Shown piece after piece: positions 31,764 through 32,009 of a DNA stretch of 64,000 nucleotides. The stretch spans positions 1 through 64,000 of the forward strand of contig JAFSGC010000008.1 in the NCBI GenBank assembly GCA_017434825.1. Direction: 5' to 3'. The stretch comes from Bacilli bacterium (GTDB lineage: Bacteria; Bacillota_I; Bacilli_A; RF39; UBA660). The notes under the pieces are model-generated. The model was not told the origin of the DNA. It ran no database searches and saw nothing but the letters and a program-made list of their open reading frames with translations. The stretch's first letter is position 1, and every line of letters begins with the position of its first letter. A program made the translations under genes and the position numbers.

Positions 31764-32009
31764 TTAACTTGCAAATGGGTTAAGATATAAAAGAATATAA
31801 ATAAATGTGAATAAGAATAATAAGAATACTGCTAGAACAACTAAAATTGTCATAATTGAATGAATTACATCATTTTTAGTTTCGGGATTCCTTCCGATAG
31901 ATTCTGCTATCTTACCTCCTAACACTCCTAAGCCGATTGATAATCCTAAGAATGTGAATCCTAGAATAATACCAACAGCAATCATTGTTGCAGATAATAC
32001 GCTTTCCAT
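31764..32009 (-). CDS. c-subunit-like proteolipid lacking the ion-binding carboxylate
   Basis: An 81-residue protein beginning [10 protein letters not shown], started at the ATG with AAAGGAGTGA eight bases upstream (a longer frame adds 15 unlikely residues). Helix 1 is Gly-rich ([19 protein letters not shown]), the polar loop RNPETKND corresponds to RQPE of AtpE, and helix 2 is about 51-76. Counting from the loop Pro42, the residue equivalent to E. coli Asp61 is Ala60 ([12 protein letters not shown]). There is no Asp or Glu anywhere in helix 2. So the hairpin fold and ring-packing glycines are kept but proton or sodium binding should be lost. It precedes the b-delta fusion gene. Confidence 0.85.

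Follow-up and report, generated by a model that had tools for sequence, protein, structure and literature searches.

Can a c-subunit homologue that lacks the ion-binding carboxylate still belong to a working F-type rotor and, if so, what would that rotor drive? The question is raised by one small gene in the window, the 64,000-nucleotide stretch of DNA from a Bacilli bacterium that we analyzed:

31764..32009, minus strand: c-subunit homologue, F-type, 81 aa, with Ala60 replacing the ion-binding carboxylate (sequence: [81 protein letters not shown])

The ion-binding carboxylate in helix 2 of the c subunit has been called universally conserved (PMC6063947). The sequence-only reading of this gene held that it encodes a c-like hairpin in which the residue 18 positions after Pro42 is Ala60 and helix 2 contains no Asp or Glu, and the open reading frame, Pfam, and alignment all bear this out. 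The protein scores 29 bits against Pfam ATP-synt_C (PF00137), above the curated cut-off of 24, and its likeness to c is therefore not due to chance. Comparison of a profile of 22 family members with solved c subunits returned c1/c2 of Acetobacterium woodii as the top match (4bem, E 2e-13) and placed Ala60 opposite the ion-binding Glu of c2. The closest acidic residue, D47, lies at the cytoplasmic end of the loop. Residues G22, G26, G28, R40, N41, and P42 are invariant across the 22 aligned members, and the glycine-rich helix 1, the RNP loop (R-N/Q-P), and both termini are nearly invariant among relatives. A TTG start 45 bases upstream, present in the mechanical ORF list, is unlikely, as the ME start at 32009 is kept in relatives.

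Examination of the relatives revealed that the alanine varies and that in none of the c proteins read does a carboxylate take its place. Position 60 is A, S, T, or M in every family member read, with Ser or Thr in many, and the Pro+18 residues of the distant members G416, G715, and G442 are F, V, and I. The hairpin also lacks a substitute carboxylate in helix 1: no D, E, K, R, or H is conserved within either membrane helix in an alignment of 17 divergent members, where lone sequences have a Glu at the extracellular end (position 5 or 10). As a control, we read 29 other c loci from the order to which G715 belongs, and all have Glu at Pro+18. The remaining Na+ ligand sites, placed according to the Ilyobacter ring, are hydrophobic save for a Gln retained in two distant members. 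Hairpins without a carboxylate are known, as in A. woodii c1 and other ligand-less c hairpins; however, the other hairpins of the A. woodii ring retain the carboxylate, whereas no second, ion-binding c was found elsewhere in the genome of the window.

The c gene is part of a unit of 12 closely packed minus-strand genes (39455 to 25513, hereafter the unit), and the unit has no subunit a. At the PF00119 cut-off, subunit a was detected in 0 of the 30 family genomes carrying the unit, with the control G067 positive, and a local HMM built from 23 canonical subunits a found no match in the unit. Given these negatives, we reject a subunit a concealed in the unit or genome. Across the 385 genomes of the order to which the window belongs, the unit occurs in 28 and subunit a in 5, with no overlap. 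Most of the genomes were assembled from metagenomes and are about 90% complete, but G190 is a single contig; since subunit a is missing from 30 genomes that include G190, incompleteness is very unlikely to be the cause. As a separate observation, nearly the whole order seems to be without an ion-translocating FoF1, given subunit a in only 5 of 385 genomes.

The unit does encode a membrane protein with some structural likeness to subunit a:

27592..28098, minus strand: membrane protein with 4-5 helices, 168 aa, a possible stator partner of the ring

Its structural matches, 9jc2_B (Z 9.1) and PS3 6n2d_a (Z 8.0), have scores within the range of unrelated helical bundles, and we treat the resemblance as a hint at most. 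HHalign detected no relationship to subunit a, and no charged residue, Arg included, is conserved in its helices. An alternative in which the complex still translocates H+ or Na+, its ligands coming from Ser/Thr, water, or a different membrane protein and not from the c carboxylate, would draw on this structural likeness and on the Ser or Thr found at position 60 in many relatives. Against it stand the Ala, Met, Phe, Val, or Ile at that position in others, the hydrophobic character of the other ligand sites, the absence of subunit a, and the lack of any conserved charge in the 4-5-helix protein, and we regard such pumping as very unlikely.

The unit retains the catalytic head, the shaft, and the peripheral stalk:

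31017..31760, minus strand: putative b-delta fusion (peripheral stalk), 247 aa, identified from an AlphaFold2 model, Foldseek, and counterparts
29693..31033, minus strand: alpha, 446 aa, P-loop GDKKTGKT, Arg finger [10 protein letters not shown], Pfam ATP-synt_ab 6e-68
28347..29693, minus strand: beta, 448 aa, P-loop GGAGVGKT, Pfam 1.4e-63
28091..28354, minus strand: epsilon-like beta domain, 87 aa, kept in relatives
25725..26516, minus strand: gamma, 263 aa, Pfam ATP-synt 4e-23

The P-loops, catalytic Glu, and Arg finger are retained in the alpha and beta proteins of the unit. Beta of the window has the catalytic Glu together with a [16 protein letters not shown]-like DEISDED, a DELSEED-like loop. 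The two remaining assignments are less direct, as no Pfam family matched the b-delta and epsilon proteins of the window itself. The AlphaFold2 model of the 247-aa protein has a membrane helix that runs into a long stalk helix, followed by a helical domain and a small beta domain. The first 36 Foldseek matches to this model are all ATP synthase chains of the delta/OSCP or b-delta kind, mycobacterial ones among them, at a best E of 1.3e-3, which by itself is no more than suggestive. Pfam OSCP, in addition, recognizes the G715 and G442 counterparts at scores over its cut-off. From its predicted fold and these distant counterparts, the protein reads as a b-delta fusion. Mycobacterial ATP synthase likewise joins stalk and delta in one chain, although the enzyme that b-delta serves there does translocate ions. 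We assign the 87-aa protein to the epsilon beta domain from its position and from its counterparts in G715 and G442, which match ATP-synt_DE_N; an epsilon-like profile had no match among PDB sequences. Alpha varies in length among relatives. In G007 (L034 4888-9138, minus strand) it reaches 1416 aa because about 950 residues are added at the C terminus, and L028, L030, L032, and L035 have shorter extensions.

To determine how widely the unit occurs we searched at three levels. Among 145 genomes of the same family there are 10 close c homologues with 52-67% identity. A c profile search of the 385 genomes of the order returned 28 carriers at E < 1e-38; the next matches fall to E 1e-6 or weaker, and every one of them that was read is a canonical c subunit. 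The close form of the unit is found in 30 family genomes in total. A class-wide search revealed a distant syntenic form in three carriers (G416, G715, and G442) from three other families; c proteins of distant members score 47-48 bits against PF00137. Altogether, the unit recurs in 33 genomes, and together with surface proteins it is found in four families. Its recurrence leads us to reject a pseudogene or an assembly error. A scan of further genome contigs for the c pair of G715 and G442 gave seven loci, four of them with readable c proteins of the canonical double-hairpin kind, and no new carrier of the form.

Mean identity to the window, calculated over up to 17 relatives, is 66% for c, 65% for beta, 62% for alpha, 52% for epsilon, and 47% for gamma. 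The corresponding values are 37% for b-delta, 34% for the 468-aa surface protein described below, 30% for the 241-aa surface protein, and 29% for the 168-aa membrane protein. A c protein without ion binding is thus conserved like alpha and beta, and we conclude that the rotor is in use. Could c instead do without a ring, as a membrane anchor for F1 or a static pore? The Mycoplasma Type 2 and Type 3 clusters, which manage without c entirely, make this conceivable. The near invariance of the glycine packing motif, the RNP loop, and both ends is nevertheless what would be seen in a packed rotor that docks gamma and epsilon, and a peripheral stalk would be useless absent rotation; we consider a ringless c highly improbable.

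Ordinary ATP synthases were found beside the unit in two of the families. The family genomes checked for alpha and beta each hold one pair, and the unit is therefore the sole rotary ATPase in them. G715, a single contig of 2.36 Mb, has four alpha-beta sets (contig C1 at 466204, 1135842, 1245123, and 1340017): that of the unit, one adjoining a subunit a, and two that look V/A-type by position and length. G442 carries the unit plus a canonical FoF1. The co-occurrence in G715 and G442 indicates that the unit is a machine separate from the ordinary FoF1. In G416, a match to subunit a (G416:C25:5646-6257, L160) contains three in-frame TGA codons and is accompanied by no second alpha-beta pair, while the unit of this genome (L114) is open in table 11; the match may be contamination by an organism with TGA=Trp or a broken gene. 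Decay of an ATP synthase in reduced genomes could account for the lack of subunit a in nearly all genomes of the order. A decaying remnant would not, however, be expected to show strong conservation across 33 genomes with catalytic residues intact, or to be retained whole in four families, two of which also have a working-looking FoF1, and this explanation is barely credible.

The other genes of the unit point to the cell surface. These genes, with the signals that flank the unit, are:

39476..39505, minus strand: promoter-like site upstream of the unit, TTGACT, 18 nt, TG..TACAAT (a consensus match only)
33432..39455, minus strand: giant surface protein, 2007 aa, assigned from hydropathy and conserved in relatives at 1700-2000 aa
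32026..33432, minus strand: second surface protein, 468 aa, single N-terminal membrane helix, 450-530 aa in relatives
26870..27595, minus strand: third surface protein, 241 aa, single N-terminal membrane helix, conserved YQYF and YDGxD motifs
26527..26889, minus strand: small cytoplasmic protein, 120 aa, genus only
25513..25698, minus strand: Flp-pilin-like small protein, last gene of the unit, Flp_Fap 27.8 bits, below the 32.2 cut-off
25490..25507, minus strand: terminator-like hairpin ending the unit (a consensus match only)

By hydropathy, the giant protein consists of an N-terminal membrane helix, a membrane-proximal domain, a Gly/Ser-rich linker, and a long extracellular part. Its membrane-proximal domain is related to that of the 468-aa protein (profile-profile E 1.2e-5). 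Kinship of these domains with b-delta was also considered, and the comparison showed no relation. The counterparts of the giant protein in G442 and G715 contain fn3 domains, as does the G715 counterpart of the 468-aa protein. The Flp-pilin-like protein has a class III type signal and is also present in genus members L070 and L071; it was not seen in three loci from other genera.

The set that recurs in relatives comprises the giant, the 450-530-aa, and the 240-aa surface proteins, c, b-delta, alpha, beta, epsilon, the 4-5-helix membrane protein, and gamma. In genus g140 (L026, L079, and L080) the two large surface genes lie away from the motor genes, which counts against a motor that works on them. 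Eight family members and the three distant carriers have the order c-b-alpha-gamma-beta-epsilon, as in canonical atp operons. Canonical Bacilli F1Fo has homologous alpha, beta, gamma, epsilon, b-delta, and c, whereas the unit lacks subunit a and the c carboxylate and has added surface genes. The retained gene order points to an origin of the unit in an FoF1 operon from which subunit a disappeared and to which surface genes were added.

That the surface proteins belong to the unit is also compatible with an ATP-driven gate or assembly platform, in which F1 and the ring serve export, folding, or anchoring of these proteins and not motility or adhesion. The Type 3 ATPase of Mycoplasma offers a parallel, being linked to surface proteins that need the ATPase for their handling (PMC12994834). 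Yet the surface proteins of the unit bear ordinary N-terminal membrane anchors, and the unit has no recurring protease or translocase; we judge this role unlikely.

The closest functional parallels are the Mycoplasma F1-like ATPases, namely Type 3, the partner of MIB-MIP, and the Type 2 G1-ATPase of M. mobile gliding. An F1-like ATPase has been proposed to power Mycoplasma gliding (PMC11864180), and the Type 3 ATPase is needed for MIB-MIP function (PMC12994834). Like the unit, both possess F1-like alpha, beta, gamma, and epsilon but no ion-translocating Fo, and both are encoded beside surface proteins, in a related class of Bacilli (PMC3369863, PMC12994834, PMC11864180). They differ from the unit in having a 12-TM protein and a large two-TM protein but no c, whereas the unit keeps the c hairpin. 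Their peripheral stalk is doubtful or replaced (GliD), whereas the unit has a b-delta stalk and different surface proteins. The unit has no equivalent of the 12-TM Protein 1, as none of its proteins exceeds about 5 predicted helices, and no large protein of the Protein 5 type with two C-terminal membrane helices, as its own large proteins have one N-terminal helix. Two Type-3-like clusters (L191 and L193) do encode a long multi-TM protein and a large protein, and lack c. Beven and colleagues weighed a c-derived origin for the Mycoplasma 12-TM protein and found no supporting repeats (PMC3369863).

Alpha and beta of the window score below the NCBIfam cut-offs for Types 2 and 3 (bits/cut-off: MSC_0619 291/520, MMOB1660 368/600, MSC_0618 374.5/570, MMOB1670 330/850). 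They also fall below the canonical atpA and atpD cut-offs and, together with c, below those of the alternate (N-type) F1F0 models (alpha 337.7/750.5, beta 363.8/752, c 20.5/130.85). In a tree of alpha and beta, the canonical sequences form one clade (99.7/100) with the unit and Type 3 outside, a placement that long branches could explain, as the inner branches are weak (21.5/83) and long. The unit probably works like the Mycoplasma motors and may share ancestry with them, yet by the features that mark Types 2 and 3 it belongs to neither. A literature search limited to open-licence papers, and hence weak evidence, found no published description of it.

Taken together, these data suggest that the unit is probably a rotary ATPase derived from F-type ATP synthase that does not translocate ions and spends its torque mechanically, most plausibly on surface proteins. 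The idea of a motor without ion flow, first raised from the c gene by itself, gains support from the fixed loss of the carboxylate, the absence of subunit a in 30 of 30 genomes, and the retention of F1, stalk, and catalytic residues. The conservation of c at the level of alpha and beta and the presence of the unit beside FoF1 in two other families strengthen it further. The c hairpins would form a ring docked on gamma and epsilon through the RNP loop, and ATP hydrolysis would rotate gamma and the ring against the b-delta stalk. With subunit a gone, the 4-5-helix membrane protein may be what keeps the stator against the ring. Because the ring would carry no ions, the torque would be spent mechanically. 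In what is the least certain step, it would most likely move surface proteins, in adhesin movement, gliding, or a similar task, as the operon context and the Mycoplasma analogy suggest.

A bolder form of this model, which we put forward tentatively as an appreciable possibility, is that the c-ring has turned into a transmembrane drive shaft with a purely mechanical role, by which giant surface proteins are turned or swung without ion flow. The unit would then be a sister of the Mycoplasma motors for gliding and MIB-MIP, or resemble their ancestor, keeping the rotor and stalk that those have lost or replaced. With the c carboxylate lost but the F1 head, stalk, and ring-type hairpin under strong selection, the family would represent, as far as we could find, the first F-type rotor freed from ions, and would provide a natural test of whether ion binding is separable from rotor mechanics. 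The unit is also a concrete intermediate for how the F1-like surface motors of Mycoplasma came from ATP synthase, and may represent a surface machine of uncultivated Bacilli with reduced genomes.

The window encodes further surface-associated proteins outside the unit. Secreted proteins with similar N-terminal signal or membrane segments are found on the minus strand at 18358-19890, 44475-45089, 49004-49627, 49714-51168, 51324-52790, and 56822-57844. Those at 49714 and 51324 are near-duplicates. By eye they resemble SipW/TasA-type surface proteins, on which Pfam is nearly silent, and comparable secreted proteins lie close to the unit in L026, L029, and L031. The region 59657-63830 (minus strand) encodes two adjacent proteins. 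One, of 1120 aa, combines Ig-like Big_2 repeats with a dockerin type I domain at its C terminus. The other, of 266 aa, has a cadherin-like domain and a C-terminal membrane helix; its N-terminal part could, by eye, be cohesin-like, and the two proteins may form a cohesin-dockerin pair.
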